A stretch of DNA of 64,000 nucleotides from Acanthochlamys bracteata. Lineage: Eukaryota > Streptophyta > Magnoliopsida > Pandanales > Velloziaceae. Positions 8,902 to 58,691 of this stretch are shown piece after piece. Each line of letters starts with the position of its first letter. Positions within the stretch are counted from its first letter, which is position 1. A model generated the notes under the pieces. The model made no database searches, was not told the DNA's origin, and saw only the letters and a list, made by a program, of their open reading frames with translations. Position numbers and translations under genes: made by a program. The stretch is from assembly GCA_019914995.1 (NCBI GenBank), contig CM034143.1, positions 3,288,501 to 3,352,500 of the forward strand, given 5' to 3'.

Positions 8902-9162
8902 GAGTGCGTTTGGTTGAGCTTATCAAACGCTATTTTTTTATTTTTTTTTATTTTATATTTTTCAATACATATTTTATAAATATATAAAAAATTTATTTAA
9001 AAATTTAAAAAATATAAAAAGTATTTTACAGAATAAAATTTTTTTATTACATATTTTTATTATTTTTTTAAAAATAAAAAAATAAAATTTATTTTTAAAA
9101 AAAATAAAAATATTTTTTATTTTAAAAAAATTTTATTTTATAAGCATTTTCAAACGCTCTCT
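8902..9162. mobile_element. AT-rich MITE-like element between two convergent genes
   Basis: A very AT-rich block of A and T homopolymers is bounded by inverted ends, GAGTGCGTTTG on the left and the complement of GAGAGCGTTTG on the right. It has no coding capacity. The same terminal motif (CGTTTGGTTGAGC) ends a similar block at 16000-16216 in the opposite orientation, so it is a repeated family. The flanks 8138-8901 and 9163-9507 are the 3' regions of the deacylase and MPB2C genes and show nothing else. Confidence 0.6.
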
Positions 9163-15999: not shown

Positions 16000-16216
16000 T
16001 GGAATTTTTTAAAATAAAAAATATTTGAAGGTTTTTTAAAAAATAAGTTTTATTTTTTATTTTTAAAAAAATAATAATAATATATAATAAAAAGATCGTA
16101 AAATTTTTTTATATTTTTTAAATTTTTAAATAAAATTTTTAAATATTTATAAAATATATATTAAAAAATATAAAATAAAAAAATACTGTTGGTGAAACGC
16201 TCAACCAAACGGGCTC
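16000..16216. mobile_element. AT-rich MITE-like element upstream of MPB2C
   Basis: The block is AT-rich like 8902-9162 and ends GAAACGCTCAACCAAACGGG, the inverted form of the left end of that element. The left terminus is not clear, so it may be truncated. It lies within about 90-300 bp of the MPB2C start codon and so occupies the probable promoter or 5' UTR region. Confidence 0.55.
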
Positions 16217-16479: not shown

Positions 16480-16905
16480 TAATTTGAAACCAATCCACGG
16501 GCCACGATGAACCAGAGCAAACCATGCACATCCCGAACTCTATGAACCTTTCATAACCCTTCTCACAAAGATGAAGAGTCAAAGAAAATGTGTATGCATT
16601 CAAGTTCAACCCTTCCTCTTTCATCTGAATCAAAAAGCTTCAACATTCCTCTAACCCCGAAATTCAAGCATTATCATGTTTCAAGAAGCAAACACTCTTC
16701 ACAGGCATTTCATCAAACACCATCTGTGCACAGCAAAATTCACTATTTTTCAAATACAACCTCATTGCAGAATTGTATAACACATAATATGAAGACAACC
16801 CAAGTTTCATAATCATATGTGAATCATTTTATCGATTGTTTATTGCCAAGCTAGGTCACAGCTTCGGTGACAATTGATAGGGTAAAAGTATGGTAAAATA
16901 TAAGC
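16480..16905 (-). pseudogene. pentatricopeptide repeat (PPR) gene remnant, 3' part
   Basis: PPR proteins bind organellar RNA for editing, splicing or stability. Read on the minus strand from about 16816 the frame shows IMKLGLSSYYVLYNSAMRLY, then VFDEMPVKSV, then MKEEGLNLNAYTFSLTL, the usual helix-turn-helix spacing of PPR motifs. Two in-frame stops (near VCFLKHDNA and after GLEEC) break it. Element A inserted immediately upstream, and the matching 5' part lies beyond that element at 28313-28690. 16217-16480 shows no gene. Confidence 0.72.
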
Positions 16906-17229
16906 TCTTATGTTTCCTCAGGAAAATCACGAGGCAACCAAGAAGAGTTCACGTTAAAGAACAAGCAGCATAAAGCATACGCTAAAACAAAGGAAGAATA
17001 TACTAAGCTATTCTAGTAAAAGGAAAATTAGATTCAACTCTCCATGCCTCATTACAATTAAAGGGTATAGATTTATAGACACGACAAGAAGACAACACCT
17101 AACACAAGATTGCAATATCTGATGGTAATCATTCTTTTGGAGATACGCTGCTCCCATAATCAGGGTGCCATTAAGTTTACAAGGCATGGAGCCACTTGAC
17201 GGTTGGTAGATGCCTCTAGGTGAGTATCA
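16906..17229 (-). repeat. element A 3' LTR
   Basis: This matches 27992-28312 along its length; shared blocks include CAAGAAGAGTTCACG and ACAACACCTAACACAAGATT. On the minus strand it begins TGATACTCACC. Its outer terminus (TCTTATG in + orientation) differs by one base from TGTTATG in the other LTR. Confidence 0.85.
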
Positions 17230-17242
17230 TTCTCACCCTCTT
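17230..17242 (-). other. polypurine tract of element A
   Basis: The minus strand reads AAGAGGGTGAGAA directly against the start of the 3' LTR, the expected plus-strand priming site. Confidence 0.75.
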
Positions 17243-17519
17243 GAGACACTACTTCATTCTCAAAATCAAAACACGGTCATAGAGGCAAAATCCTCGTAAA
17301 TTGCTTTTGCTACTAGAGATTCGCAGCCAGTAGAGCCTCTAGATAGAAGAGACTAATTAACAATAGCCTATGGTCTCCTATTAAGCATGATGACATCCAA
17401 AATAAACACCTCAGCCCTGGTGGATGTGGTGTATGGATGCCTTGGGAAGAGTACTCGGTCAAATGTAGACATTCTTCATATGAGTAGAATATGTTATTGG
17501 GTTTTACAAGAAACTGTTC

Positions 17520-18305
17520 ACCTCAGTTGGTGTTTTCTTAAACAGCCCCTCAAATACTGAGCAAGCCTATGTTAGGCAATGATCAATATGACAAGGAAAA
17601 TAATAAAGAGTGACTTTTTGGTGCTTGCTTCTCAGGAAGATCTCTAAAGACTAATCCTCTGTAAGGTGAGGTTTGAGAATCTGTATATTGCACTTTGTAC
17701 CACGAGTACTAGACTTCAATAGTGAGTTTTCGAAGTACCACCACCGCATGTCCATATTGCCAAGTGCGTTGACAACAAGATTTGAACTCTCCCAAAATGC
17801 ATCAAGAAGGACATGCTCAGGCTCAGGGTTAGCACGATATTGGAAAGCTTCAATGAGAGAGCAGAATTAAGTAAACTGGTAACAAAAGCAGTTTCATTTG
17901 ATTTAGTATTGCTCATATTTCAATCACAGAAGAAAACTTGCCAGCTAAGATTACTCTTCTCAATCACATCATCATCCTTAATAGTACTCTTGCGCTTCCG
18001 GCTGCAAGAAACTCCCTTAAGCGCTAAGTTCTTCAAGAACTCGCATCTAAGAGCACCAGATCCAACAATAAAAACTGTAGTCTTCCAGTATCCTTCGAAG
18101 CTTGGAACTAAATATAGAAATTTGAGCGTCATAGGGGCAATTCAACAGTTTGAAATCACTAGGCTCTATTGGTTATGTTGGTAGGGAATTTAGTGAATCA
18201 AAATAGATGAGATGAAAGAGTGGATTGAACTTTCCTGAGCAAGCATTCACAACCTCCTGCCTCACTACGCCACTAAACATTGCGGCTATAGGATTCAACA
18301 CACCC
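17520..18305 (-). pseudogene. ubiquitin-activating enzyme E1 (UBA1-like) fragment, C-terminal half of the captured piece
   Basis: E1 adenylates ubiquitin and passes it through a thioester cysteine to E2 enzymes. Minus-strand blocks, in changing frames, are [96 protein letters not shown] and HIDHCLT..FEGL. These run in the order of plant UBA1, roughly its middle third. Stops and frameshifts are frequent. The catalytic-cysteine segment that should follow PEKQAP is altered and the Cys is gone. No intron-like interruption is visible. Homology fades after VNSFL near 17520; 17243-17519 is probably element A sequence. The gypsy element separates it from its N-terminal half at 23748-24770. Confidence 0.85.
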
Positions 18306-18310
18306 TAGAG
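18306..18310. repeat. target-site duplication TAGAG (left)
   Basis: TAGAG precedes the left gypsy LTR and recurs at 23743-23747 just after the right LTR, proving a single integration into the E1 pseudogene. Confidence 0.92.
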
Positions 18311-18638
18311 TGATATGCTTCGCCAAAGATCGACACCAAAGAATTGAAACAATGCAAATACAAAAAAACAGAGTAAGTTAATATAAGAAAATCAACTAAT
18401 TAATATTCATCTTTCCCCCCTTCTCCTGCATAATTCTAAATCTTTTATAGTAGGCACTAAACGTTTGGCAGACAGCAAGGTAGTTGGACACAAGTTGCTA
18501 AGAATATTTGGAGTAACTACATGCATATTGCATGCATGCCGGTGGTTGGTAGAAAGGAGTGGAAGCTAGCCGTTGGAATGCAGACTCCTGGTTCGTGGGC
18601 TGCGAAGTATTTGGGTCCAGTCAGGCTGTAGCATATCA
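18311..18638 (-). repeat. gypsy element 3' LTR
   Basis: 328 bp, starting TGATATGC and ending GCATATCA. It is followed in + orientation by TTCCCTCCCCCTTGAAAC, which on the minus strand is a G-rich polypurine tract (AAGGGGGAGGGAA) at 18639-18651. Confidence 0.93.
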
Positions 18639-18705
18639 TTCCCTCCCCCTTGAAACAAAACTTTGTCCTCAAGGTTATACTGACGCTAATAGTAAATGAG
18701 TCTTC

Positions 18706-18850
18706 CTAGATGGCGTTAGAGTTGGGCATGCCCTCCCAAGCCACTAAAACTTCTTGGTGTGAAGTGCCGCCATGAGATATAGTCCGACGATTCACTAAAA
18801 CTTTTTGGTGAGGAAGCTCATGGTAACAAATAACGTCCGTCCTTAAGCTG
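18706..18850 (-). pseudogene. chromodomain-like C-terminal tail of integrase
   Basis: The minus strand shows VLVNRR...EVLVAWEGMPNSNAIWED, the pattern of the plant chromovirus chromodomain (conserved W and a final WED). It is shifted by a frame from the integrase frame that ends QLKDGRYLLP, so a frameshift near 18820-18840 separates them. In intact elements this domain steers integration towards particular chromatin. Confidence 0.65.
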
Positions 18851-19960
18851 ACAAATATGAAATACTGGATGAACGCGAGAGTCTGGAGGAAGATCAAGTT
18901 TATATGCCACTGGTCCAATGCATTCCAAAATGAGAAATGGCCCATAGAAGTGGTGGTGGAGTTTATAATGATGACGGTTTGAGATAGATGCCTGACGGTA
19001 TGGTTGGAGTTTAAGATAGACATGATCACTTGGTTCGAAGTGTTTGTCACACCGATGACGATCCGCAATTTGCTTCATTCTATTTTGAGCCTTCTGCAGG
19101 TGAAATTTTAAATCACGAAGAATTGCATCACGATCCCTGAGTTGTTGGCCTATGGTATCGGATATGTTAGACCCTGCAGTAAAGGACACTAGCGGAGGAG
19201 GAGGCCTTCCGTAGAAACCTTCAAAAGGGGTGGCATGTGTACCATAATGAGTGCTAGTATTGTGATAGTATTTTGCCCAATGCAACCAACGCATCCAATC
19301 GCGTGGATGTTCCCCCGCAAAGCACCGTAAATAAGCTTCAAGCTCTCGATTGACTACCTCCGTTTGGCCATCCGTTTGCGGATGGTAGGCGATGCTCATA
19401 TGTAATGCTGTGCACTGCAATTTGTTTAATTCTTATCACAATTTACTAAGAAAAATAGGGTCACTTACTATAGTGGTTGGCTTGCCATGTAGTTTCAGAA
19501 TTTCCTTAGCAAATACATCAGCAACTGAATGGGCAGTATATGGGTGACGCAGAGGAATGAAGCAGGCAAATTACGAAAGACGATCAACCACAACAATAAT
19601 GACATTTTTCCCATCAAATACGGGTAGGCCATTGATGAAGTCCATAGATAGATCTGTCCAAATAAGCCGTGGAATAGATAACGGTTGTAGAAGTCCAGCC
19701 GGTGAAGTAGACTCTGACTTCGCACGCATGCAAGTGTCACAAGCAGCAATATGATGTTGAACATCTCTGCTCATGCCGGGCCAATAGAAGGTGTGGGATA
19801 AACGCTTGTAAGTGCGAAATTGGCCACCATGTCCGTCGATAGCCAAGTTATGGGCATCAAAAAGCAGCTGCTGACATAAAGCAGCATGGTTAGGTACCCA
19901 AGTGCGCTTGTTATGAAGGAGGAAGCCATTACTTAGTGTGAGAGTAGGGTCATTATTTGT
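18818..19960 (-). pseudogene. gypsy integrase (broken)
   Basis: A HHCC zinc-binding segment has GHGGQFRTYKRLSHTFYWPG and CDTCMRAK near 19720-19840. The core begins WTDLSMDFINGLP (first Asp), continues with a VSDPIFLSK block (second Asp, two residues shorter than usual) near 19455, and AYHPQTDGQTEVVNRELEAY (Glu) near 19350. A stop and frame changes lie between 19420 and 19570, so no single frame spans the catalytic triad. Confidence 0.85.
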
Positions 19961-20459
19961 GCGTGCCTTTTGTAATAAGGGCGCAGCAATTGGATCTTTC
20001 TGCAAGGCTGTTCGCAAGCCAAAATATAGAATGAATAGTAGAAATGACCATAAGAGTGGATGGAGAGCAGCGTAATAAGGCATCGGCGACGGTGTTATCT
20101 TTTCCTGCTCTGTATTCAATAGTATAATCATAACCCAATAACTTAACTAACCATTTATGTTGCTCCGACGTGGATAAACGCTGCTCGAGAAGGTACTTAC
20201 GGCTAATATGGTCAGTCTTGATGATGAATCGCCTGCCTAACAAATATGGCCTCCAACGTCGAACTGCCAAGACTAATGCCATTAGTTCTTTTTCATAGGT
20301 AGATTTTGCTAATGTCTTACCAGTTAGTGTCTGGCTGAAAAAAGCAATGGGTCGTCCTTGTTGTGAGAGTACTGTGCCAATGCCTGTGCCCGATGCGTCT
20401 GTTTCCACGGTGAATGTTTGAGAAAAATCAGGGGCAGCTAAGATAGGTGTGGTTGTCAT
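19953..20459 (-). pseudogene. gypsy RNase H domain
   Basis: Seen are FTVETDASGTGIGTVLSQQG (first catalytic Asp), YEKELMALVLAVRRWRPYL (Glu), FIIKTDHISRKYLLEQR (Asp) and YRAGKDNTVADAL. The domain is complete in one frame from about 20459 to 20070; the frame then runs out of register with the integrase. Confidence 0.9.
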
Positions 20460-20467
20460 GACGGACT

Positions 20468-21300
20468 TCAGTTTCTGAAAAGGAATGTCTGCAGTTGGTG
20501 ACCACTGAAAGAGTCTTTCTTTAGGAGAGCCGTCAGAGGGGCGGCGATGTTACCGTAGTCTTTTACGAAACGACGATAGTAACCAGTTAAATCCAGAAAA
20601 CCCCGCAGTGCAGTCGAAGAGCGAGGTAGTGGCCAATCTGTCATGGCTTGCACTTTGATTGGATCTGCTGCAACACCATCTGTAGAGACGATATGTCCCA
20701 AATATTCTACACTTGTACATCCCAGAAGGCACTTGGAGAGTTGACATGTAGATACTCTTTGTCCAGGATGGAGATGACTGATTCCAAGTGTTGAAGGTGT
20801 TCCTGCCAAGAAGAACTGTAAACCAGAATATCGTCGAAGAAAACCAAGACGAATTTGTGCAGAAATGGACGAAAAATATTATTCATAATGGACTGGAATG
20901 TAGCCGGCGTATTTGTGAGGCCAAAAAGCATCACAAGGAACTCGTAGTGGCCATCATGAGTTCTAAACACCGTCTTATGTGTATCGGACTCCTTTACTAT
21001 GATCTGGTGGTAGCCGGTCTTAAGATCTAGCTTAGAGAAATATCATGTTCCATGCAACTCGTCGAGGAGTTCATCGATCACCGGGATAGGATATTTGTCT
21101 TTAATATTGATGGCATTTAAGGCCCGGTAATCAACACAAAAGCGCCACGAGCCATTTTTTTTTTTGACCAATGGAACTGGAGAGGAGAAGGCTGAAGAAC
21201 TTGGTCGGATAATGCCTTGGTCCAGCATTTCCTACACCATGCTTTCGAGTTCGGCCTTCTGAATGTGAGCATACCTGTATGGTCTAACATTCGCTGGGGT
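20468..21300 (-). pseudogene. gypsy reverse transcriptase (broken)
   Basis: The fingers/palm region has [20 protein letters not shown] and [20 protein letters not shown] stop follows HGT near 21041; the sequence then continues [29 protein letters not shown] and the catalytic [13 protein letters not shown] (FFDD in the YxDD position). A second frame change near 20750-20800 leads into the connection segment [13 protein letters not shown]. Confidence 0.9.
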
Positions 21301-21539
21301 GGAACCTGGAAGTAGGAAAATGTGGTGATCGGGTAGAGCGGACCAGAGGAAGACCAACAGGAGGCTGAAATACAGACAAGTGCCGAGCAAGGAGTTGCTT
21401 GATGTCCTCTGGAATCGGTTCAGTGTAATGGGTGGTATCCGGAGCTGCAATAATACGAATGAAACATAGTGTACCGATGTCAGATATGCTGTGCAGACGT
21501 GACACTCCTCCTTCCCTAATCCATTGAAGCACAAGTTCC

Positions 21540-22053
21540 TGACCGTGCAAAAAAATCTCATATCAGAGCGTTTCCAGTTGCAAGTAACGTCGCCCAGACT
21601 CTCCAACCATTGGATTTCTAGAACGATATCCATACCCCCGAGAGGAAAAGGGTATGCATCCACTAATGAAGTTGTGCCTTGCACCGGTTTTGGAACACGT
21701 CGATAAATAACCTCGATAGAATGAGGCCTGCCATCTGCTAGCTCAACCTTAAATGGTTTCACTGTCGCTGGGCACAAGTGTAGGTGTTTGGCTAAGCGCT
21801 CAGTGATAAAATTGTGAGTGCCTCCAGAATCAATAAGAATGAAAACATCGTGCTGCTTGATTAGTCCGACAACACGGATGGTCTGAGGTCCTACTAGTCC
21901 ATGGATAGCACTTAAAGAAAGAGTTGCAGCAGATTCATCAAGTGGGGTGTCTTCATCAGAATTATCGTCTTCAAATCCAGCTAGTGCATATAATCTAGCA
22001 GCACAATGATGGTTACGATCGTACTTGTCATCGCAACAAAGGCATAAACCCAA
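21540..22053 (-). pseudogene. gypsy zinc knuckle and aspartic protease
   Basis: A CLCCDDKYDRNHHC knuckle begins near 22045. It is followed by LSLSAIHGLVGPQTIRVVG and the protease motif VFILIDSGGTHNFI, then HLHLCPATVKPFKVELADG and LGGMDIVLEIQWLESLGDV. The usual DSGST is DSGGT here. The frame stays open past the protease into an unrelated reading; the true frame of the linker to RT lies in another register at 21284-21550. Confidence 0.88.
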
Positions 22054-22119
22054 GTCACGTCGATGATTGATTTCTGATGGCGTTAACCCAGTAGTCTTGG
22101 CCGGCCAACATGAGAGACT

Positions 22120-23411
22120 GTCAAAGTTGCTTGTGGGACAGGTGAAGTGCTACCTTGCATGATAGTAGAGCTTGTTGAGGCAGCAGAACTAGAGGTACTT
22201 GAACAAAAGTGCGATGATCGCCACTGTTGTGTAGCAGTAGAATCGAATGTTTGTTTCTATTCATAGAGTTTAGCAAGCATATATGCTTGCTGCAAATCTG
22301 GAGGTTGTCGAGATATAACTTCAAGTGCTATCTTTCGATGTAATCCACCAGAAAATTGCCCGACTAGGTCCTACTCTGTTGCATAAGGAAGTCGAGCGTG
22401 CAGGTCTTCGAATTCCTTCTGGTAATCAGCAATTGAACCAGTTTGGGATAGCTGTTGCAATGCAACAGAAGGATTGCCAAAAGCTGTTGGACAAAACGAC
22501 ATAAGATGGCGTCTGCCAATTCCTCCCAAAAATGCCACAAATTGTCTCTTTAAAATTCTGGTACCAACAATTTGCTTGGCCGTTGAAATACATAGCAGCA
22601 ATAGATACTCGATCAGACGGTGATGTGTGAAAATATCGAAAATATTTTTCTGCCGAGTATAGCCATTCTTGCGGGCCGGTACAATCAAACGAAGAAAATT
22701 TGTGTCTGTCACGCGGAGCAACAATGTTATGCTGTTGATAGGTTTGACAATGTCCTATCACGTAGGAAATGGAGATTGGAAAGTGGAAAATTGGTTAAGC
22801 AGTTCGTGGGATGATGGTACGTAGGAAAATGAGTGTGAAGGTGGCATATGGAGAGGAGTATGTGGTGGTAGCATATGGAGAGGGGCATGTGGCAGTGGAT
22901 GTGATAGTGAAAGGTAAGAATGTGGATGTGGTGGGGGTACGTGGACAGTTGTAGTGGGTGGTGGCAGGTAGGGTGGTGGGGGTGAGTGGATAGTGTTATG
23001 AAAAGAAGTCACGGGTGGTGTGAAGGTGGTGGGAATGGGTAGAAAAGAAGTAGAGGAAAGGGTGTGGGTGGGTAAGGTAGAGGAAATTACTTGTGGCATT
23101 ATTGGCGTAGTGGATGGGGACTGATTCGTCGTCGGAGGTGCAGGATCCCGTATAGAGTTTGCTAATTCATTCATCAAGCATTGTGTTTTAGCTTGACCTA
23201 CGAATTTACGTGCCAAAGCAGCAATAAAGTGTGCTGCCAACCAGTGTATTTGTTCTTGCCAGTTTACCTCACGTCTGGAGAGGGCGGCAGAATTTGGAGG
23301 TCGGAGAAAGGGAGATTCTGGAGGCTGTAGAAATTCTTCAGATGGGGAGGGTGGTGTGTGGGGCAAATTTGGCGTTGCTGGAGACGCGCTGGTCCCTAGA
23401 TCACCGCTCAT
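22120..23411 (-). pseudogene. gypsy gag (broken)
   Basis: Translation would start at the ATG at 23411, which lies inside the primer-binding site. A Pro/Ser/His-rich N-terminal part (MSGDLGTSASPATPNLPHTP...) runs to about 22760. The core gag domain is then split over two frames: EWLYSAEKYFRYF and AAMYFNGQANCWYQNFK (22426-22761 frame), then SQTGSIADYQKEFEDLHARL ending in a stop at 22371. Confidence 0.85.
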
Positions 23412-23418
23412 GATACCA
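23406..23418 (-). other. gypsy primer-binding site overlapping the gag start
   Basis: The minus strand reads TGGTATCATGAGC two bases after the 5' LTR. It fits the initiator-Met tRNA 3' end except for one extra T, and that T creates the gag ATG. Confidence 0.8.
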
Positions 23419-23420
23419 AA

Positions 23421-23742
23421 TGATATGCTTCGCCAAAGAATGGCACTGGAGAATTGAAACAATGCAAATACAAAAAAAGCATACCAAGTTAATTTAAGAA
23501 AATCAGCTAATTAATGTTCATCTTTCCCTCCTTCTCTTGCATAATTCTAAATCTTTTTTAGTAGGCACTAAACGCCTGGTAGACAGCAAGGTAGTTGGAT
23601 GCAAGTTGCTAAGAATATTTGGAGTAACTACATGCATCCATGCCGGTGGTTGGTAGAAAGGAGTGGAAGCTAGCCGTTGGCATACAGACGCCTGGTTCGT
23701 GGGCGGCGAGGTATTTGGGTCCAGTCAGGCTGTAGCATATCA
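23421..23742 (-). repeat. gypsy element 5' LTR
   Basis: 322 bp, paired with 18311-18638; several indels (for example in the ACTACATGCAT region) and point changes separate the two copies, showing considerable age. Confidence 0.93.
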
Positions 23743-23747
23743 TAGAG

Positions 23748-24770
23748 CCTAATGCAAAATGGTGTAGGAGTATCTTGTCAAACTGGCCAAGCTCTGTAAT
23801 GCCTTCGCTAAGTTCATAGCCAAACAATTTCTCAGTATCCACTTCTGCTCCAGCAAGAGTTGATAGATCTCAGAGAAATCACTCAACAAGAAATCGCCTG
23901 CATCTATAAAAGCATCTCTTAAAAACTTGAAGTTCAAAAATTTTGGTTCTTGCACCTGGGCTGCTATCCCTCCTCTCACATACTTACTAAATTTGGTTGT
24001 ATCCTCAACACCAGTAAAAGAATACGGCATAGCATTTTTGACTTAGCTAGGCTGCCCACCATTCAGTTCTATCTTGCCCTAGATTGCAAACAATATCACA
24101 AGATCCTAATCCTGAAACTCGAATTTCTCATCATTAATACAAGAAAAAAGCGCAGGATTGTCATTACTGATTGACACAATGACGCCTATCTGTGGTACCT
24201 TTCTATTTGCATTAACCATAGTGAGTGCTGGATCAAAGTCGTAAAAGGCATTGCTAACAAGGCCCTGAATTTCTGACTTAATGAATGGAGAATCGTGACT
24301 TCTATAGTAATCATCATATTTTTGAGAGCTTTTTTTGTGCTGATATTAGTAAACACAATAGCTTTGAAATCTACGAGCTAATTCGCTGATCGAGGCCCAA
24401 TTAGTGTGCTAATAATAAAGCTATTGTGCAGCTCCTGCATTTTCTGAACACATGTAAGTGCCATGTTCTTACGGATGTCATCCTCTACGAAGAAGAAATT
24501 ACTGGATAGATTCCAGAGCTTCATTGTTAATTCATCGTGCAAGTTGCAGACTTAACCCCAGCTAGCATAAGGTTGTAGGCTGTCTCAGAGTCAAGGTCAC
24601 AAAGATCAGAGATAGCAGCTGTAGCAGGTCAGTATAATGGGTTAATGTCGGGACGAGATCGATAAGATTGCTGCCTACCGTTGATGTCTTCTTCCCTACT
24701 TGTCAATTGCCATCTTAAGTGGTTTTCTAACAGATCCCTTTGGATCAACAAGTGAGGGCAACATCGGCGG
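23748..24770 (-). pseudogene. ubiquitin-activating enzyme E1 (UBA1-like) fragment, N-terminal half of the captured piece
   Basis: From 24600 downward the minus strand shows NLMLAGVKSAT, LWNLSSNFFFVEDDIRKN, VQKMQELHNS, then [37 protein letters not shown] and [18 protein letters not shown], ending [11 protein letters not shown] at the gypsy insertion. This matches the order of plant UBA1 from its first adenylation half. The expected continuation is exactly the VLNPIAAMF block at 18305, on the far side of the TAGAG duplication. Frames shift repeatedly. The 5' limit is vague, about 24600-24770. Confidence 0.82.
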
Positions 24771-24871
24771 TTCGATTTGTCGCGAAACTGACCAATATAC
24801 TGGGCTTATGAAAAACTATGATGCTTACTGACAGCGAGGGTTTTTGGAATCAAGCGAACAATTGATTCAAT

Positions 24872-25589
24872 CCATAGTTGTAAGAACTGGACCGGACGTC
24901 GAACCGAAAAACTGTTCAAGTCACGGTTCTCGAGTTGACCCGCCGGGCCGGGTCAACTGGTCGAACCGTCGGGTCAATAATATTAAAGCATTTTCGACCA
25001 ATAATAACAATAATTACAGTGAAAAATCTACTGTTTCATGGCACTACAAATAATAATAGCAGCAACAATCATAGAAAAAATTAGAGTATTTTTACTATAA
25101 AATTACTATCAACAACAAGCAACAACAATCACAGCGAAAATTGAAGTATTGCCAACATGGCATTACCACCACCAACAACAATAATAACAGCAAAAACTTA
25201 TAATGAAAAATAGATAAATCATAAAAGAGACATAACTAATTTTTTTGAGTATACATATTTGAGTCTTAATTTTACAATATAAAAATTAAAAAATCACTAA
25301 TAATTGATATTTACAAATAAGATATAATCAATTATATTTTTGCATTATCACATCCAAATACAAAATCTAAACTACATATTATTTTTCAACATAGGGCTTT
25401 TAATAATTATTTTTGTATTAAATATATCATCAATTTAAATTTTTTAAATTAATTTTTTAAAAAATTTTATTGAACCTTGTTTGACCCGGCCGGACGGGTC
25501 GATTGCATAAACGGTCTTTTTGCAAACCCGGACCGGTTAACGGTTTTCGGGTCGACCTGGACAGTTCGGTCCGGGTCTGAAAACTATGG
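24872..25589. mobile_element. MITE with GC-rich inverted ends
   Basis: The left end CATAGTTGTAAGAACTGGAC and the right end ACCGGGTCTGAAAACTATG (degenerate inverted copies) bound about 120 bp GC-rich arms full of GGGTCGA/GACCCG words around a very AT-rich centre. No coding capacity is visible. It resembles the widespread plant hAT-like non-autonomous elements starting CATAGTT (inference). No convincing target duplication was found. Confidence 0.7.
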
Positions 25590-26640
25590 TCTGGACACCG
25601 AGTGCTGACGGAGATATTAGATTGCAGATTAGATTCTGTTTAAATAGCCTGATTTCTTTACTGTTGAATTTTTATCTTTGATTATGATTTGTTAAACTAT
25701 TTTATTAGCAAAGTATTTTGATTATCAATAAATTATATTTTTAATTGTATTGACATTAATGTTTAGTTACTAAGTACTTATCTATTGTTATTATTTTATT
25801 TATTTATCTTTTTAACTTATGATTTTATATTTTTAATGAAACATTTATTCATTAACTACTTGAAGTATTCAAGGAATTATTTATTCATCATAACTTTGTT
25901 TTTGTTCACTATTTTTGTTACTAAGTTTACTTTTTAAGGTATATGCTTTCTTTAAAGATATGTTATATTACTTAATTAATTGTGAATTAACTTAATTGCA
26001 TAATATAATTATTTAATACTGCATGTTGCATTGCATGTAACCGTATCTCTCTATTTAAAAATTGGATCAGTATGGGATGGTTTAGAACTTAGTAAGACTG
26101 ATGCAATCTATCTTTGCTTTTTTGTTTCATATAGATTGATAGAAATAAAATAAATACTTAAGAAATGAATTAGTGACCTAAACTGATGCACTATTGCTTT
26201 TCACTTCACAGAGATTGGGCTCACTGTTTCTCTTTCTTTAGACTCTTTCAAATATGATAAAGACGAGTTGAGGGACCCTTTAGCGTGACACTTGCCATCG
26301 GTGAGTTGAGAGTATAGTTTGTATGATTCTTTATTTCACATAGTTGGCTATGTAACTTTGAGAAATTTGTTTATGTAAAACGTTGTATAATTGAGAGTTA
26401 TAGTATGGTGGTTTATGTGTTTGGTTTGAAGGCCATTACCATTATATTTGTCTATTTGAAGGTGAATGACTATCATTATTATTGGGTGTTCTAATAGTAA
26501 TCAGTTACAGCTATTTTGTAAATTGTTTAAAATTTTCCATCGAGTTTTTTTAGAGAAGGTTCTGTCGAAAATTTAAAAAATTTCTGCACGTGCATAATGA
26601 AAGTGGTGTTTTAGGTAAAGCTGATTAGACTAGGCTAAGT
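25590..26640. other. AT-rich interior of element A
   Basis: No gene, domain or repeat that I can name; part of element A between the MITE and the gag-like region. Confidence 0.6.
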
Positions 26641-26657
26641 CCAGATATGATCTGGAT

Positions 26658-27092
26658 TCAGTTTGGAGTAGTACTTGTTACGGTCTGGGAGCGGGGTGTG
26701 ATAGGGTCTGGGCTAAGTAATGTTATTAGGTTTGATGGTGAGCTTTCCATAGTGGACTGTGGTTTTAATAGTGGTAGGCAAGGAAACGGGGCAGCAGAGA
26801 AGAGAGGAGGAAAACCTAAAGGCGAAGAATATGGCTTCGGCAAAAGGGAAGCCCAAACTGGAGTAGGTTTCGGAGCGAAAGAGAAGGAGGAAGACAAAGC
26901 CGACGGCGGTGGAGAAAGCTTTGGCAAGGAAGAAGCCAAAGTCGGAGGAACAGATTTTGTTGTAAGAGGGAAGGAATGCATGGTGAGTGGTATGTTGCTG
27001 GAGAAATCAGTATGGGATGAAAACAAGATTGAGGTTGTAGCTAAAGATGACAATTGGTTGATGCTAATTTGAGATGGAGGCGAATGCTCCAA
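26658..27092 (-). pseudogene. Ser/Pro-rich gag-like frame of element A
   Basis: A 144-codon frame rich in Pro and Ser (for example PPTLASSLPKLSPPPSAL) lies downstream of the gag start of element A. It resembles the low-complexity N-terminal part of some gypsy gag proteins but has no conserved core. It may be a remnant of gag or simply non-coding. Confidence 0.35.
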
Positions 27093-27559
27093 GTAGCAGT
27101 AGAAAGTAGATGCAGCTTGTGCTCATGTGAGGCATATAGATCCCTAAAAGTAGGAAGGGAAGTTGTGAGTGTGAATCATGAAACCAATGCCCTATTGGAG
27201 GAGTTAGGTGAGGAGAATGAGAGGTAGTTGTTGCGGTTGGAATGGGCAATGGTGCAGAAATACTTGAAATGGCTAATAGGTATGGAAGGTAGGGCTGAGT
27301 GAATTTCCGGCAGTGAAGGATGAGTTGCGAAACAAAGTGGGTTTCGAAAATCGAGGGGTTGTAAAGTATTGAGAATAGATTACTGGTTGAGGCTATTAGT
27401 GGCGGAAAACGGGATTGGCAAACCTTGTTGGGCTTGTTGTAGCTGTTGACAGTCGAAAATTTGTGGAGGCAGAATCGATAATGGACTACAGAGTAATGGT
27501 GGAGTAACGTTTGTGAAAGAGTAGGAAAAACTTTTGAACTGTGAGAAACAAAATGGCTA

Positions 27560-27982
27560 TTATTCTAAAGGTGTGAAATTGTGTTTGCAGTGGGCAAGTG
27601 GTGTAGACGAGGGAAGCAGAAGCGAATTGGTTGTAATGAAAGTGGTATGAAAATAAGCATGATGGGTTGGGAGAAGAATTTTTTGTGTGATTGTTGAATT
27701 TTCTCGGTTGTTTGGTGAAATAGGGATGCCATTACAACGAGCTTGTATGATTTTGACCATCTTTCTATCTGTCTTCTCCTGCTGATCTTCTAGTCGTGCT
27801 AAGGTCTTTGGAATTTGTGTTATCAATAGATTCAATTTGGTCCTGTGAATTGGACTCGATTCTAAGCATAGTTGTGGACGAGGCTGTCTAAAATTCGTCG
27901 TTGTTGCCAGCGACGTTTCTTCAGCCAAACGCAATCCATCACCTTCTAGAGGAAACACATTTGTCTGAGGACCATGGCTCAT
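27560..27982 (-). CDS. element A gag N-terminal-like ORF
   Basis: A 140-codon frame starts at the ATG (27982) embedded in the primer-binding site, as in the nested gypsy element. It includes a short heptad-like stretch, TLARLEDQQEKTDRKMVKII, such as found near the gag N-terminus of gypsy elements. No capsid core or zinc knuckle follows in any frame. Probably a truncated gag. Confidence 0.45.
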   Translation of the reverse strand: MSHGPQTNVFPLEGDGLRLAEETSLATTTNFRQPRPQLCLESSPIHRTKLNLLITQIPKTLARLEDQQEKTDRKMVKIIQARCNGIPISPNNRENSTITQKILLPTHHAYFHTTFITTNSLLLPSSTPLAHCKHNFTPLE

Positions 27983-27990
27983 GATACCAA
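27976..27990 (-). other. element A primer-binding site
   Basis: TTGGTATCATGAGCC on the minus strand, one base after the 5' LTR. Same arrangement and same extra T as the nested gypsy element at 23406-23418. Confidence 0.75.
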
Positions 27991-27991
27991 T

Positions 27992-28312
27992 TGTTATGAT
28001 TCCTCAAGGAATCACAAGGCAATCAAGAAGAGTTCACGGTAAAGAACAAGCAGCAAAAAACATATAGTAAACAAAGGAAGAAAACAAGAAGCTATTCTAA
28101 TAAAAGGTAAATTAGATTCAGCTGTTCATGCCTCATTACAATTTAAGAATATAGATTTATAAGCATGATGAGGAGACAACACCTAACACAAGATTGCAAT
28201 ATCTCATGGTAATCATTCTTTGGGGATACAATGCTCCCAAAATCATGCTGCCATTAAGTTTACAAGGGATGGAGCCACTTGGCGGTTGATAGGTGCCTCT
28301 AGGAGTGTATCA
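27992..28312 (-). repeat. element A 5' LTR
   Basis: 321 bp; on the minus strand it begins TGATACACTCC and ends ATAACA. Homologous to 16906-17229. Confidence 0.85.
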
Positions 28313-28690
28313 CAAGCATGCGTGGATGTTTGAAAAGAAATCCAGGTTCACAATCCCGTTAAGAAGGTATGCGACAAGGATTGCATTCCATAGCATAAGA
28401 TTTGAGAGATTTTGTAAATTTGAGTCGAAGACAAGTCAATGAAAGGATGGCTGAGGCGTGAGTAGGTGGAGACGAGCTCCCATCAAGAATGGTTCACGAT
28501 GGAGTTTGTGAATATGTAACTCGCTGTGAATGTTGTGGGCAAGCCTGAGAGAACCACTAGCGACGATGCCGGATGGCTACCGTTGTAGATTTCTAGCTGG
28601 CTTGCTAACATTCTACTGCACTGATGCCTTATTGTCGAATTTGAAACTTGTCATCCGTAGCCCGTAGATCTCTACTGACTAAAGCACATG
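28313..28690 (-). pseudogene. PPR gene remnant, 5' part
   Basis: The minus strand reads SNLQNLSNLMLWNAILVAYL, a typical PPR boundary, then FFSNIHACL, after which element A interrupts. The continuing PPR motifs are at 16480-16905. Upstream parts are frameshifted and weaker. Confidence 0.55.
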
Positions 28691-31539: not shown

Positions 31540-31955
31540 TTATTCTTTCGGTACTAGAGAATGATGGGGGTTTTCTTTGATAATTTCATCTGCTGTTGAT
31601 GAGAGAGGTATGCCAGGTATCTCAGGTGTTGATTCAGCAATAAAGCCAACTATCTCTTCCGGCTTTGTTTCCCTTATTATTCTTATTTTGTGAATTCTAC
31701 TCCTCGCCTTGTGTCTCACCCTAAAGAGGGGACGTGGATATTGTGAAAGAGAAGAACATGTCAGACTATAAAAATGTGACATCCAGTGTGACATAGTGCG
31801 TTTAGTGGTAGGATACTAACACCGATATCCCTTCCTTTGTGTACCATAATAACTCAAAAAGTTACAACGAACAACACATTGGTCAAAGCTTAGTCCGGCA
31901 ATTTTTGTGACACATCCAAATATCACCGGGGGGGGGGGTTGGGGAAGACAACAAC
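31540..31955 (-). pseudogene. copia post-integrase linker
   Basis: VIFGCVTKIAGLSFDQCV and YYGTQRKGYRC near 31816-31930 are a decayed form of the copia motif FGC...LD.RA.KC.F.GYS..QKGYKC that follows integrase. A frame rich in Pro, Glu and Ser (SRIHKIRIIRETKPEEIVGF) follows. This is the single-copy boundary of the amplified array. An 11-base G run lies at 31928-31938. Confidence 0.7.
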
Positions 31956-32403
31956 GAAACATAAGTAAATAAAACCTAGAATGGAGTTTGAAAGTTGAGT
32001 ACCTTGGAAGGCATCCTATTAAGGAAGTAGACAGCGAATAATATTGCATCTGCCCAATAACTTTGAGGTACATTTGCTTGGATCATATGAGCTCTACTTG
32101 TTTCCAAACTGCGTCTACTTTTCCTTTTTCTCTCTCAATAATACTCACTGCTATGGTGTATAAGCACATGCGGTTTCATGAATAATACAATAAGCATGAA
32201 AGTAATCAATAAACTCAAAACTAATGTACCCGCCACCATTGTCTTAATGAAGATTCGAACTTTAGTTGAAAACTGAGTCTGAATCATATTATGGAAGTAG
32301 AGAAAAGTGCAAAACACTTCATGTTTATTCTTCAATAAAAAAGCCAAGTCATGTGGGGTGGGTGGGTAGTCATGTGGGGTGGGTGGGTGGGGAAGGCGGC
32401 AAC

Positions 32404-33597
32404 GAAACATAAGTAAATAATACTTAGAATGGAGTTTGAAAGTTGTGTACCTTGGAAGGCATCCTATTAAGGAAGTAGACAGCGAATAATATTGCATCTG
32501 CCCAATTACTTTGAGGTACATTTACTTGGATCATAAGAGCTCTATTTGTTTCCAAACTGCGTCTACTTTTCCTTTCCTCTCGGCAATACCACTCTGCTAT
32601 GGTGTATAAGCACATGCGGTTTCATGGATAATACAATGAGCATGAAAGTAATCAATAAACCCATAACTAACGTACCACCACCATTGTCTTAACAAAGATT
32701 CAAACTTTATTTGAAAACTGAGTCTTAATCATATTATGGAAGTAGAGAAAAATGCAAAACAGTTCATGTTTATTCTTCAATAAAAAGAGCCAAGTCCTGT
32801 GTGTACAATCATCAACAAATATGACAAACCAACAAATGCTAGACGAGTTGGGCACAGTGAAAGTCCCCAAACATCAGAATGAATCAATGGGAAATGAGTT
32901 TGACCTCTGCTAGAACTAATAGGATAGTAAGCACGGTGACTTTTAGTAATAATACACACATCATATTTAAAGTCTGAAACATTCGAACCACAAAACAAAT
33001 CTGGTAAAAGAAACTCTAAATAGCTGAATGAAGGATGCCCCAAAACTGACGATGCCATAGCCAAATCTGACTCTGCTTGCCTTCAGATGATTGATGAATA
33101 TGATTTGCTCTGCCAAGACTGAAGTAATGAATATATATAACCACGCTCTTTTAGTACCACAACCAATTATCTTCTTGCTGACAATATCCTGAAGAAGACA
33201 AAATTGAGGATACATTAGTACACAACAATTCAACTCCTTGGTAGCTTGTGTCACAGATATATCAATTTACTTGAAAGAGATGGAACAAGTAAAGTGTTTG
33301 ATAACGAGAGAGAGGGTGATAGGTCCATGGTTCCTGCCCCTATGACTTGATAGATAACTCCATTTGCATTTGCAATAGACGTTTGTCTTGGTGTGGACCA
33401 GTGTTGAGGTCACTCGAGTCACATCTCATGTGAGAAATTGCCCCTAAGTCAATTATCTAGTCCTGGCATTTCTGTAAAAAGACTTGGATAAAAGTTGCTT
33501 ATTACCTGAGTTGCTAGTGGTGGAGGCATTTTTCTGTTTGCAAGCAAGGTTGTAAAGATCAAAGTCATCCTATTAAGGAAGGCGGGAAAGCGGCAAC
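32404..33597 (-). repeat. long module, copy 2
   Basis: 1194 bp. On the minus strand it has a protease remnant, then the pre-integrase block with KIIGCGTKRAWLY, then LGHPSFSYLEFLLPDLFCGS, SHRAYYPISSSRGQTHFPLI (integrase zinc region and HSDVWG), and the integrase core up to NRMPSKV. Nearly identical to 38687-39880. Confidence 0.85.
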
Positions 33598-34803
33598 GAA
33601 ACATAAGTAAATAATACCTAGAATGGAGTTTGAAAGTTGAGTACCTTGGAAGGCATCCTATTAAGGAAGTAGACAGCGAATAATATTGCATCTGCCCAAT
33701 AACTTTGAGGTACATTTGCTTGGATCATATGAGCTCTACTTGTTTCCAAACTGCGTCTTTTTCCTTTTTCCTCTCGGCAATAACACTCTGCTATGGTGTA
33801 TAAGCACATGCGGTTTCATGGATAATACAATGAGCATGAAAGTAATCAATAAACCCAAAACTAATGTACCCGCCACCATTGTCTTAACAAAGATTCGAAC
33901 TTTATTTGAAAACTGAGTCTTAATCATATTATGGAAGTAGAAAAATGCAAAACAGTTCATGTTTATTCTTCAATAAAAAGAGCCAAGTCATGTGGGTGGG
34001 TGGGTCATCAACAAATATGACAAACCAACAAATGCTAAATAATACCTAGAATGGAGTTTGAAACATCAGAATGAATCAATGGGAAATGAGTTTGATCCTA
34101 TTAGAACTAATAGGATAGTAAGCAATACTTTTAGTAATAATACACACATCATTTTAAAGTCTGAAGGTACATTTAACCACAAAACAAATCTGGTAAAAGA
34201 AACTCTAAATAGCTGAATGAAGGATGCCCCAAAACCTTTCCATAGCCAAACCACTCTGCTTGGATGGTGATAATATACATTGCTTTCATGGATAAGACTG
34301 AAGTAATGAATATAATATAACCACCCTCTTTTAGTACCACAACCAATTGTCTTAACTTCTTTATTTTCAATATCCTTAAGAAGACAAAATTGAGGATACA
34401 AAGTACAAAACAATTCAACTTTATTCTTCAATAAAAGCTCCTGTGTCACAATCATCATCAAATATGACAAACCATGGAACAAGTAAAGTGTTTGATAACG
34501 AGAAACATCAGAATGAATCAATGGGAAATGAGTTTGACCTGCCCTATGACTTGATAGATAACTCCATTTGCATTTGCAATAGACGTTTGTCTTGGTGTGG
34601 ACCAGTGTTGAGGTCACAAAACAAATCTCATAAAGAAATTGCCCTAAATCAATTAATCTAGTCCTGGCATTTCTGTAAAAAGACTTGGATAAAAGTTGCT
34701 TATTACCTGAGTTGCTAGTGGTTGGAGGCATTTTCATTTTGCAAGCAAGGTTGTAAAGATCAAAACCATCCCACATTAAGGAAGGGCGGGAAGGCGACAA
34801 AAT
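33598..34803 (-). repeat. long module, copy 3, scrambled
   Basis: The first 390 bp match the other modules. From about 34000 the sequence becomes a patchwork: an anchor fragment recurs at 34030 and joins directly to pre-integrase sequence, and short words from distant parts of the module interrupt one another (for example ACTCTGCTTGGATGGTG at 34251, mixing integrase and anchor words). Confidence 0.75.
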
Positions 34804-36946
34804 TGAACATAAGTACATAATACCTAGAATGGAGTTTGAAATCAGTTGAGTACCTTGGAAGGCATCCTATTAAGGAAGTAGACAGCAAATAATGTTGCAT
34901 CTGCCCAATAACTTTGAGGTACATTTGCTTGGATCATAAGAACTCTACTTGTTTCCAAACTGTGTGATACTTTTCCATTTGCATTTGCAAATACCACGTT
35001 TGTCTGTGGTGTATAAGAACATTTGAGGTTGCATGAGTAATACAATCTCATGAAAAATAATCAATAAACTCAAAACTAATCTACCATTGTCATTTCCGAA
35101 GAAAAAGACTTTAGATAAAACTTGAATCATATTACCTGAGAAAAGTGCAAAACACTTCATGGCATTCTTCAATAAAAAAGCAAGTCATGTAAAGATCAAA
35201 GTCATCCTATTAAGGGAAGGCGACAACGAAACATAAGTAAATAATACCTAGAATGGAGTTTGAAAGTTGAGTACCTTGGAAGGCATCCTATTAAGGAAGT
35301 AGACAGCGAATAATATTGCATCTGCCCAATAACTTTGAGGTACATTTGCTTGGATCATATGAGCTCTACTTGTTTCAAAAAAGCTACGTCTACTTTTCCT
35401 TTCCTCTCTCGCAAACAACACTCTGCTATGGTGTATAGGCACATGCGGTTTCATGAATAATACAATGAGCATGAAAGTAATCAATAAACTCAAAACTAAT
35501 GTACCCGCCACCATTGTCTTAACTTCAACTTTGATCTATTTGAATTTAATTGAAACTATAGTCTGAATCATATTAAACTAAGAGAAAAGTGCAAAACACT
35601 TCATGTTTATTCTTCAATAAAAAAGCCAAGTCATGTGGGGTGGGTGGGTAGGGAAGGCGGCAACGAAACATAAGTAAATAATACCTAGAATGGAGTTTGA
35701 AAGTTGTGTACCTTGGAAGGCATCCTATTAAGGAAGTAGACAGCGAATAATATTGCATCTGCCCAATAACTTTGAGGTACATTTGCTTGGATCATATGAG
35801 CTCTACTTGTTTCCAAACTGCGTCTACTTTTCCTTTCCTCTCGGCAATAACACTCTGCTATGGTGTATAGGCACATGCGGTTTCATGAATAATACAATGA
35901 GCATGAAAGTAATCAATAAACTCAAAACTAATGTACCCGCCACCATTGTCTTAACGAAGATTCGAACTTTAGTTGAAAACTGAGTCTGAATCATATTATG
36001 GAAGTAGAGAAAAGTGCAAAACACTTCATGTTTATTCTTCAATAAAAAAGCCAAGTCATGTGGGGTGGGTGGGTAGGGAAGGCGGCAACGAAACATAAGT
36101 AAATAATACCTAGAATGGAGTTTGAAAGTTGTGTACCTTGGAAGGCATCCTATTAAGGAAGTAGACAGCGAATAATATTGCATCTGCCCAATAACTTTGA
36201 GGTACATTTGCTTGGATCATATGAGCTCTACTTGTTTCCAAACTGCGTCTACTTTTCCTTTCCTCTCGGCAATAACACTTGCTTGGTGTATAAGCACATG
36301 CGGTTTCATGAATAATACAATGAGCATGAAAGTAATCAATAAACCCAAAACTAATGTACCCTACCATTTCTTAACAAAGATTCGAACTTTAGTTGAAAAC
36401 TGAGTCTTAATCATATTATGGAAGTAGAGAAAAATGCAAAACACTTCATGTTTATTCTTCAATAAAAAAAGCCAAGTCATGTGTGTGGGTGGGTAGGGAA
36501 AGCATCAAACATAAGTAAATAATACCTAGAATGGAGTTTGAAAGTTGTGTACCTTGGAAGGCATCCTATTAAAGTAGACAAACATAATATTGAATCTGCC
36601 CAATTCAATTGAAATACATTTGCTTGGATCATAAGAGCTCTATTTGTTTCAAACTAGTAAGCGTCTACTTTTCTTTCCTTTAGTAATAATACACACTGCT
36701 ATGGTGTATAAGCACATGCGGTTTTCATGAATAATACAATGAGCATGAAAGTAATCAATAAACCCAAAACTAATGAATACCCGCCACCATTGTCTTAACG
36801 AAGATTCGAACTTTAGTTGAAAATGATTGAATCATATTATGGAAGTAAGAAAAGTGCAAAACACTTCATGTTTATTCTTCAATAAAAAAAAAATCTTCAT
36901 GTGGGGTGGGTGGGTAGGGAAGAAGACAAAATTGAGGATACATTAG
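34804..36946 (-). repeat. run of five consecutive short modules
   Basis: Starts are at 34804, 35228, 35665, 36090 and 36504. Each encodes on the minus strand a decayed integrase core segment (LLKNKHEVFCTFLYFHNMI.. to SYWADAILFAVYFLNRMPSK). Copies at 35665 and 36090 are almost identical; those at 34804 and 36504 carry many small substitutions and insertions. Confidence 0.88.
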
Positions 36947-38266
36947 TAAACATAAGTAAATAATACCTAGAATGGAGTTTGAAAGTTGTGTACCTTGGAA
37001 GGCATCCTATTAAGGAAGTAGACAGCGAATAATATTGCATCTGCCCAATTACTTTGAGGTACATTTACTTGGATCATAAGAGCTTGTATTTGTTTCAAAA
37101 GTTGCGTCTACTTTTCCTTTCCTCTTGCCCTAAATACCACTCTTCTCTATGGTGTATAAAAAAGACATAAATGTTTCATGGATAATACAATGAGCATGAA
37201 AGTAATCAATAAACCCATAACTAACGTAACGTAACCACACCATTGTCTTAACAAAGATTCGAACTTTATTTGAAAACTGAGTCTTAATCATATTATGGAA
37301 GTAGAGAAAAATGCAAAACAGTTCATGTTTATTCTTTATTCTTCAAAAAAAAGAGCCAAGTCCTGTGTACAATCATCAACAAATATGACAAACCAACAAA
37401 TGCTAGACGAGTTTGGGCAATTAGGTGAAAGTCCCCAAACATCAGAATGAATCAATGGGAAATGAGTTTGACCTCTGCTAGAACTAATAGGATAGTAAGC
37501 ACGGTGACTTTTAGTAATAATACACACATCATATTTGAAGTCTGAAGCATTTATGAACCACAAAACAAATCTGGTAAAAGAAACTCTAAATAGCTGAATG
37601 AAGGATGCCCCAAAACATAAGTAATGCCATAGCCAAAGTCTGACTTGCTTGCCTTCAGATGATTGATGAATATGATTTGCTCTGCCAAGACTGAAGTAAT
37701 GAATATATATAACCACGCTCTTTTCTCGGCAATAACACTCTGCTATGGTGTATAGGCACATGCGGTTTCATGAATAATACAATGAGCATGAAAGTCACGC
37801 TTTTTTTGTACCACAACCAATTATCTTGTTGCTGACAATATCCTGAAGAAGACAAAATTGAGGATACATTAGTACACAACAATTCAACTCCTTGGTAGCT
37901 TGTGCCACAGATATCAATTTACTTGAAAGAGATGGAACAAGTAAAGTGTTTGATAACAATAAAAAAGAGAGAGGGGGTGATAGGTCCATGGTTCCTGCCC
38001 CCTAGATGACTTGATAGATAACTCCATTTGCATTTGCAATAGACGTTTGTCTTGGTGTGGACCAGTGTTGAGGTCACTTGGAGTCACATCTCATGTGAGA
38101 AATTGCCCCCTAAGTCAATTATCTAGTCCTGGCATTTCTGTAAAAAGACTTGGATAAAAACTGCTTATTACCTGAGTTGCTAGTGGTGGAGGCATTTTTG
38201 GAAGTTGCAAAACAAGGTTGTAAAGATCAAAGTCATCCTATTAAGGAAGGCGGGGAAGGCGGCAAC
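36947..38266 (-). repeat. long module, copy 9, scrambled
   Basis: 1320 bp, the longest module, because short out-of-place words are inserted. One example is a second TCTCGGCAATAACACTCTGC block at 37722-37790 in the middle of the pre-integrase region. Otherwise it has the same content as 38687-39880. Confidence 0.78.
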
Positions 38267-38686
38267 GAAACATAAGTACATAATACCTAGAATGGAGTTT
38301 GAAGTTGAGTACCTTGGAAGGCATCCTATTAAGGAAGTAGACAGCTAATAATATTGCATCTGCCCAATAACTTTGAGGTACATTTGCTTGGATCATAAGA
38401 ACTCTACTTGTTTCCAAACTGTGTCTACTTTTCCATTCGGCAAATACCACTTTGCTGTGGTGTATAAGAACATTCGGTTTCATGAGTAATACAATGAGCA
38501 TGAAAGTAATCAATAAACTCAAAACTAATGTACCCGCCACCATTGTCTTAACGAAGATTCGAACTTTAGTTGAAAACTGAGTCTGAATCATATTATGGAA
38601 GTAGAGAAAAGTGCAAAACACTTCATGTTTATTCTTCAATAAAAAAGCCAAGTCATGTGGGGTGGGTGGGTAGGGAAGGCGGCAAC

Positions 38687-39880: not shown

Positions 39881-40259
39881 GAAACATAAGTAAATAATAC
39901 CTAGAATGGAGTTTGAAAGTTGAGTACCTTGGAAGGCATCCTATTAAGGAAGTAGACAGCGAATAATATTGCATCTGCCCAATAACTTTGAGGTACATTT
40001 GCTTGGATCATAAGAACTCTACTTGTTTCCAAACTGTGTCTACTTTTCCATTCGGCAAATACCACTCTGCTGTGGTGTATAAGAACATTCGGTTTCATGA
40101 GTAATACAATGAGCATGAAAGTAATCAATAAACTCACAACGAACGTACCCGCCACCATTGTCTTAACGAAGATTCAAACTTTAGTTGAAAACTGAGCCTG
40201 AATCATATTATGGAAGTAGAATCCCAGAATGAATCAATAGGAAAGAGTTTGACCTCTAC

Positions 40260-56849: not shown

Positions 56850-57385
56850 AAAGATCAAGGTGGCTTCGAACTGTAAGTTCATCAACTTACCATTTTCCAC
56901 AATATTAAAGGCAAATAGCATAATACCTTCTTGCAATTTAAGCTACCATCATGTTAGGTAAACCAAAAAATACAAAAGGAAGGAAATCTTACCGACACTG
57001 CCAAACTTCGGAGCTCCTTGCACCAAAGCTATGATAGCAGATTGTTATTTACAGCTAGAACTAAAGAAGTAAAGGGAAAAAGTATGATCACAACGAGAGC
57101 GCAAGAGGATGTAAGGAAAGGTTTCGTTTATTTAGGTTGAGGGTGATCCCCAAGTGAGGAGAATGCCTTCTTAAATATAGAGTTACAACGGAACACTACA
57201 GCGTTCCTGATAAGACTCCACTAACTAGAGGCAGACATATACGTAGTGGCCAGGTACAATAATGTAAAAAAATCTTATCACTTTACTATTACATGATTAC
57301 AATAACAATAAGAGAAGATGTCTTTTCAAGCCCATTGTGACATACATATGAATAAGGAATCCTTCAGCAGTGCTCTAAGCTAATT
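56850..57385 (-). repeat. pararetrovirus-like promoter/leader module, inverted copy
   Basis: Inverted homologue of 60065-60610. Read on the minus strand it has a TATA box (TATATTTAAG, 57168-57177) followed by AGGCATTCTCCTCACTTGGG, a degenerate primer site TGCTATCATAGC near 57030, and leader sequence GGAGCTCCGAAGTTTGGC. The TATA, leader and primer layout fits an endogenous pararetrovirus; an LTR is the alternative. Confidence 0.6.
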
Positions 57386-58640: not shown

Positions 58641-58650
58641 ACTTGCAATT

Positions 58651-58663: not shown

Positions 58664-58691
58664 ATTATATCATTCACGTCCATCTCCTTCG

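Follow-up and report, generated by a model that had tools for sequence, protein, structure and literature searches.

The 64,000-nucleotide stretch of the Acanthochlamys bracteata genome analyzed here (the window; C18:3288501–3352500 in an assembly of 195.5 Mb and 557 contigs) contains a piece of UBA1, a gene for ubiquitin-activating enzyme (E1), lying between the long terminal repeats (LTRs) of a retrotransposon, element A (16906–28312, minus strand). Three questions arise: (i) was the piece captured before the element moved, (ii) from which gene and by what route did it come and (iii) is it an enzyme or a passenger. The answer that we favor, with a probability of roughly 0.88, is that an LTR retrotransposon, probably of Ty3/gypsy type, transduced part of host UBA1 by way of RNA.

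Element A and its second insertion

Element A is an LTR retrotransposon, as the preliminary description had it, with an LTR pair, a primer-binding site (PBS), a polypurine tract (PPT) and a target duplication. Its LTRs are 86.6% identical (43 differences over 320 aligned sites; Kimura two-parameter distance, K2P, 0.149), the 3′ LTR terminating in AAGA instead of AACA, and the two copies of the imperfect 5-bp duplication agree at four positions. We take TTGGTATCATGAGCC to be a PBS of the tRNA-Met type and AAGAGGGTGAGAA to be the PPT. No reverse transcriptase (RT) was found in element A, its gag-like region gives no match to a gag core and a Pfam gag domain is absent from both this element and the copy described below. 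The pol found within 16906–28312 is the broken pol of element B, a nested Ty3/gypsy element with protease, RT, RNase H and integrase pieces of Ty3 type, bearing out the earlier statement that element A has no pol of its own. The LTRs of element B are ~91.1% identical (K2P 0.096), and this lower divergence fits insertion of element B after element A.

A second copy, at C7:8096303–8110797, contains in order an LTR, PBS, gag-like region, E1, the element 3′ end and an LTR, and is flanked on both sides by a perfect duplication of its own, AATGT. When the 5 kb to either side of the C18 copy were compared with 2.3 and 1.7 kb flanking the C7 copy, no match was found. The C18 and C7 copies are two insertions of single origin. 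Because they share the order of their parts and differ in flanks and duplications, capture of E1 preceded transposition, the conclusion that the preliminary description had tied to other copies with the same E1 boundaries.

Relatives of the element suggest what E1 replaced. In tblastn searches, the start of gag (27563–28003) matches the C7 copy and 11 related loci, which we cut at ~3.3 kb. The gag core of element B is matched downstream in 10 of these 11 and its protease in nine; within the stretches searched, neither has a match in the E1 copies, where only the pol end is present. By sequence comparison, E1 occupies the place that the gag core and pol hold in relatives, and the E1 copies would depend on an outside supply of Gag and Pol. 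The 3′ end of element A includes a 52-bp stretch also present in a relative on C17, and its C7 counterpart reads FDLEDEVVSQEGGN, with EHFASVRSCFDLEDEVVSQEGGN ahead of the PPT; we take these to be the Ty3/gypsy pol end motif.

The C17 relative (C17:4594201–4600500) has LTRs that are 92.6% alike and 74–78% like the C7 LTR; no E1 match was found in it, although the element is itself decayed. Four further LTR places, on C9, C17, C6 and C19, gave no E1 match over 9.5 kb each, and those on C17 (duplication CTGAG) and C19 (GATAA) resemble solo LTRs. The places on C9 (L051) and C17 (L052), with LTRs of this family, share flanks at 78–82%, as if a segment or genome duplication had followed the insertion. 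Two pairs of LTRs distantly related to the C7 type, with ~10.7–11 kb between the members of a pair, lie at C19:2618761–2629450 and C16:2951852–2962920.

The captured exons and their donor

The E1 piece runs in the orientation of element A, as had been reported: it matches the UBA1 gene on C15 on the minus strand and, at 23749–24042, the Pfam family PF16190 (E = 3.8e-6; 27.3 bits, under the curated cut-off of 29.5). PF16190 scores 64.3 bits, above the cut-off, in the C7 copy, where Pfam finds FCCH, the four-helix bundle and two ThiF stretches, one of them below cut-off. The piece had been described as free of intron-like interruption. This holds for introns 1–3 but not for continuity, since element B splits the piece into two blocks (about 24694–23743 and 18310–17470).

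DNA searches with both E1 blocks, in which only the best candidates were scored, hit C7 in addition to the window and to two UBA1 genes, one on C15 and one on C10; one block also matched C8. Identity between E1 of element A and the C15 gene is 78–85% by piece and 72.8–81% by stretch. The C15 gene, which we divided into exons by eye, translates to 1071 amino acids, and among the best 120 of 2461 matches its protein is closest to that of oil palm (82%), followed by pineapple, Canna and others at ~80%, including a poppy relative. A tree of five sequences with C8 as outgroup unites C7 and C18, then joins C15 and then C10, with support of 100 at both nodes; dS is 0.40 between C15 and C10, 0.18 between C7 and C18 and 0.23 from C15 to either copy. 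These relationships identify the C15 UBA1 gene as the donor. Deletions of 6, 6 and 18 nt are common to C7 and C18 and occur in neither C15 nor C10, which shows that both copies derive from one capture.

The first three introns of the C15 gene measure 425, 2544 and 131 nt. Introns 2 and 3 are missing in both copies, where exons 2 and 3 and exons 3 and 4 are directly joined. For intron 1 the evidence is the end of exon 1: its last 35 nt match C15 in register at 23 positions in C18 and 21 in C7, compared with 5–13 in 19 slid registers each, and none of 2000 shuffles reached the in-register match. Because this segment is joined to exon 2, intron 1 is missing as well, and the suggestion of an mRNA intermediate agrees with the alignment to the parent gene. 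A C7/C18 length difference near position 23860 that we considered as intron retention is actually the loss of 64 nt of exon 3 from C18.

The two ends of the piece differ in how sharply they can be placed. The 3′ joint falls within exon 4, and both copies have the same sequence on its element side (score 99.4, 0/300 shuffles). E1 in C7 extends to about position 3087 of L048, in exon 4 (score 24.1, 0/300), and is followed by the sequence shared with C18; C18 is without this last part of E1 (169/300 shuffles). On the 5′ side, C7 and C18 agree at 37 of 49 nt upstream of exon 2 (score 25.0, 0/300 shuffles), followed by one more equal base. C18 has in addition a 20/25 match to exon 1 at 90–115 nt before exon 2, three nt out of register, reached by 2/500 shuffles over a narrower span and 8/500 over a wider one. 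Exon 1 of C10 at this place gives only 85/500 and 273/500, and in C7 an exon 1 match is absent there (495/500 and 301/500). In the C7 copy, gag-like sequence gives way to exon 1 some 50 nt ahead of exon 2; C18 retains more of exon 1 and then continues into DNA of obscure source that is absent from C7. Translations from six of the 11 related loci gave no convincing match to the 5′ joint. The joint thus lies in exon 1 or upstream of it. Taken together, the two joints mean that codons ~64 (in C18) to 711 (in C7) of 1071 are represented, a piece of some 600 codons without the C-terminal third (codons after ~711).

We had earlier placed the 5′ joint precisely where exon 2 begins, beside 49 bp of element sequence, when a local test for exon 1 was weak (C18 score 13.5, 7/300 shuffles; C7 62/300; the best C18 alignment in register). 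The in-register match overturned this placement, so a joint made by splicing at exon 2 was dropped and the odds of a splice route were lowered. The LTR/E1 junction regions singled out in the preliminary description also need correction: 24695–26704 has no counterpart in C7, and 17469–17230 is the element's 3′ end, not E1. The other copy does share the 3′ joint; the expectation of identical E1 boundaries holds for the element side there, and at the 5′ end the copies are not equal to the base.

Route of capture and fate of the E1 piece

In the account that we favor, fully spliced C15 UBA1 mRNA would have been packaged together with element RNA. During reverse transcription, a first switch would have led from the pol end of the element RNA into UBA1 exon 4 and on through exons 3 and 2 into exon 1, and a second from exon 1 back to element RNA in the gag linker. 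The resulting chimera would have combined the gag N-terminus, an E1 piece starting near codon 64 or before it and ending near codon 711 of 1071, the pol end and LTRs. With trans-acting Gag and Pol it would then have been copied, giving insertions on at least C18 and C7, after which its E1 part drifted without constraint. Two template switches with spliced mRNA fit best because the 3′ joint falls within an exon and no introns are left.

A variant within this RNA-capture account, whose odds overlap with it, has the element lying in or upstream of UBA1 and giving rise to a read-through transcript from which the introns were spliced, with one switch in exon 4 restoring the 3′ end. A single switch then suffices, the route is described in plants in the excerpted text of a review (PMC13317346) and the C7 copy retains a 467-amino acid open frame leading from the gag-like linker into E1. 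On the other side, the 5′ joint gives this variant no direct support, and the match to exon 1 contradicts its initial form, in which splicing led precisely to exon 2. We consider read-through possible but rather doubtful.

If the captured E1 were functional, acting as a dominant-negative E1 or as a source of small RNA against UBA1, it might have been kept in the element for that reason. We compared substitutions in exons 2–4 up to position 1779, using 526 of 592 codons after removal of codons gapped in any of the four sequences and of sites that differ between C15 and C10. The ratio of nonsynonymous to synonymous changes is 62:17 on the shared branch, 76:21 for C7 and 100:21 for C18; the neutral expectation is 2.6–3.6 to 1, and no branch falls below it. 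Constraint was accordingly not detected on the shared, C7 or C18 branches (p = 0.52, 0.48 and 0.058, the last toward more changes), and dN/dS is ~1 on each. The parental frame is broken by one stop and an 8-nt deletion in C7 and by eight stops in C18. Codon 646, presumably that of the catalytic cysteine, is altered in both copies, in C18 close to an indel. Because of the dN/dS values and the change at this codon, we regard the E1 piece as a neutrally drifting passenger and not an enzyme: the catalytic cysteine, the full domain set and purifying selection that a functional E1 would be expected to have are all lacking. For the same reasons the earlier idea that copies might express E1 finds no support here.

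Two observations lean the other way. The three shared deletions are all multiples of three, for which the chance is 1 in 27 if lengths are free, and changes to stop codons are fewer on the shared and C7 branches (3/176) than on the C18 branch (7/121), a difference that is not significant (Fisher p = 0.097). They hint, at most, that the frame was kept open while the element was mobile. Retention for an E1 function is improbable on balance. Equally hard to credit is an extended version in which a gag–E1 fusion was mobile for long, its frame open regardless of amino acids, exchanged its U3 promoter region, moved very recently to C7, perhaps carrying a 10-kb antisense element, and served the element through E1 RNA or a truncated E1 protein, for example by blunting ubiquitylation or as small RNA against UBA1.

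That C7 and C18 represent one insertion duplicated along with a chromosome segment is very improbable. Shared flanks do exist for the C9 and C17 LTRs, and UBA1 itself is paired on C15 and C10, but the C18 flanks are unlike the C7 flank compared, and target duplications and U3 differ between the copies. Least credible of all is a processed UBA1 pseudogene around or beside which LTR elements inserted, with no capture: the E1 piece lacks introns and nested insertions are frequent here, but equal order and the same 3′ joint recur at two loci whose flanks are unrelated and whose duplications are separate, the 3′ part of the mRNA is missing and no E1 match was found outside the LTRs. The preliminary description had named as refuting capture either the lack of another E1-bearing copy together with E1 homology running on into flanking DNA, or parental introns within the piece; none of these was observed.

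Several points weigh against transduction as we describe it. The searches, which score just the best candidates, yielded only two E1 copies, and no helper element was identified. Exon 1 is represented by only its last ~35–50 nt in C7 and reaches ~115 nt in C18, with different sequences upstream, and its identity to the donor (60–66% over the last 35 nt) is lower than that of exons 2–4 (~80%). The U3 regions of C7 and C18 differ, their LTRs being 64–67% identical with a good match over only about the last 130 bp, so that some exchange between LTR types is also needed. Finally, LTR ages conflict within the C7 copy. Its outer LTRs differ by one substitution and one indel over 391 sites (99.7% identical), whereas a 10.2-kb antisense Ty3/gypsy-like element nested in its 3′ end, with duplication TTTCG, has LTRs that differ by 122 transitions and 13 transversions over 2500 sites (5.4% diverged). 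The rates of the nested element predict ~20 transitions for the outer LTRs, and none is seen. Either gene conversion of the outer LTRs, a recent move of the composite, fast divergence of the nested pair or misassembly could account for this, and we dropped dating of the C7 insertion by its LTRs owing to the divergence of the nested pair.

Feature map and known systems

Features of element A, the nested element B and the C7 outer LTRs (window positions except in the last row)
Feature	Position	Strand	Remarks
Target duplication, left, TAAGC (+ strand)	16901..16905	.	
3′ LTR, element A	16906..17229 (alignment uses 16907-17229)	-	
PPT-like AAGAGGGTGAGAA	immediately ahead of 3′ LTR, element A	-	found by eye
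Element 3′ end, probable remnant of pol end, with PPT-like tract	17230..17469 (240 bp)	-	common to C7
UBA1 exon 4, 5′ part, captured	17470..18211	-	
UBA1 exon 3, remainder, captured	18212..18310	-	
Element B duplication TAGAG	18306..18310, other side 23743-23747	.	
Element B, nested Ty3/gypsy, broken pol	18311..23742 (5.4 kb)	-	sits within captured exon 3
UBA1 exon 3, first part, captured	23743..24362	-	
UBA1 exon 2, captured	24363..24579	-	
UBA1 exon 1 end, captured	24580..24694	-	24580-24629 common to C7
DNA lacking C7 counterpart; AT-rich and repeat DNA	24695..26704	.	includes 24695-24880, source obscure
Proline-rich N-terminal gag-like region, element A	26705..27982	-	tblastn of gag start 27563-28003; DNA match to C7
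PBS-like TTGGTATCATGAGCC	27976..27990	-	1 nt past 5′ LTR; found by eye
5′ LTR, element A	27992..28312	-	begins TGATACACTCC, ends CATAACA
Target duplication, right, CAAGC (+ strand)	28313..28317	.	
C7 outer LTRs	L046 2303-2693 and L047 6906-7297		

Within the part of element A that lacks a C7 counterpart, the AT-rich segment 24880–25600 has termini that by eye resemble imperfect inverted repeats (CATAGTT...), and ~100 bp at 26600–26704 have matches at 14 other genome places (73–84%). Elsewhere in the window, 31872–40258 contains 11–12 related units at irregular spacing (~420–2600), including a pair of 290–300-nt segments that are 98–100% identical and ~6.28 kb apart. Several inverted-repeat arm pairs, 85–91% complementary and some nested, lie in 56857–60591; one of these pairs has arms of 242 nt at 57496–57737 and 57796–58037. 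Inverted arm pairs at 8943–9129 and 16005–16183 are 87–95% complementary and ~7 kb apart.

Acute transforming retroviruses offer one parallel to the capture: they carry gag–oncogene fusions in which spliced host exons replace pol and part of gag, and they need a helper. Element A is similar in that spliced host exons stand where pol and some of gag would be and in that it would need help. It differs in being a plant retrotransposon with no envelope and with cargo that bears no sign of selection. Here the captured coding sequence decayed neutrally while still being mobilized, and the two LTR types, together with the C7 age conflict, raise the question of whether a gene-carrying element can still be mobile with another element nested in it.

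The closer comparison is with Bs1 of maize, an LTR element that, according to the excerpted text of a review, carries segments of plasma-membrane ATPase, xylan endohydrolase and beta-1,3-glucanase genes; the same text lists read-through transduction and abnormal template switching among the routes of capture by retrotransposons (PMC13317346). As far as the excerpted sources describe such elements, element A represents an event of the same kind as Bs1 (PMC13317346, PMC7264820, PMC3726574). Both carry host gene pieces between LTRs; in element A the donor is identified, its introns are missing and two insertions, on C18 and C7, agree in part order and, at the 3′ joint, on the element side. Unlike Bs1 as described there, element A has one known donor, UBA1, and a decaying piece.

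In the literature searched, which covered few subscription journals, we found no paper that joins an LTR retrotransposon, a ubiquitin-activating enzyme and gene capture, and the words 'ubiquitin' and 'intron' are absent from the main text of PMC3726574. That text counts 672 LTR-captured genes in rice, 1,343 in sorghum and 424 in maize; these resemble the present case in that host gene copies lie within LTR pairs, and most of those in rice are reported to be under non-purifying selection (PMC3726574). Gene capture by plant LTR elements is thus known, at hundreds per genome in the retrieved text of that study. Its sets are genome-wide lists; element A is a single, clean case, with a donor, lost introns, a 3′ joint and two independent insertions.

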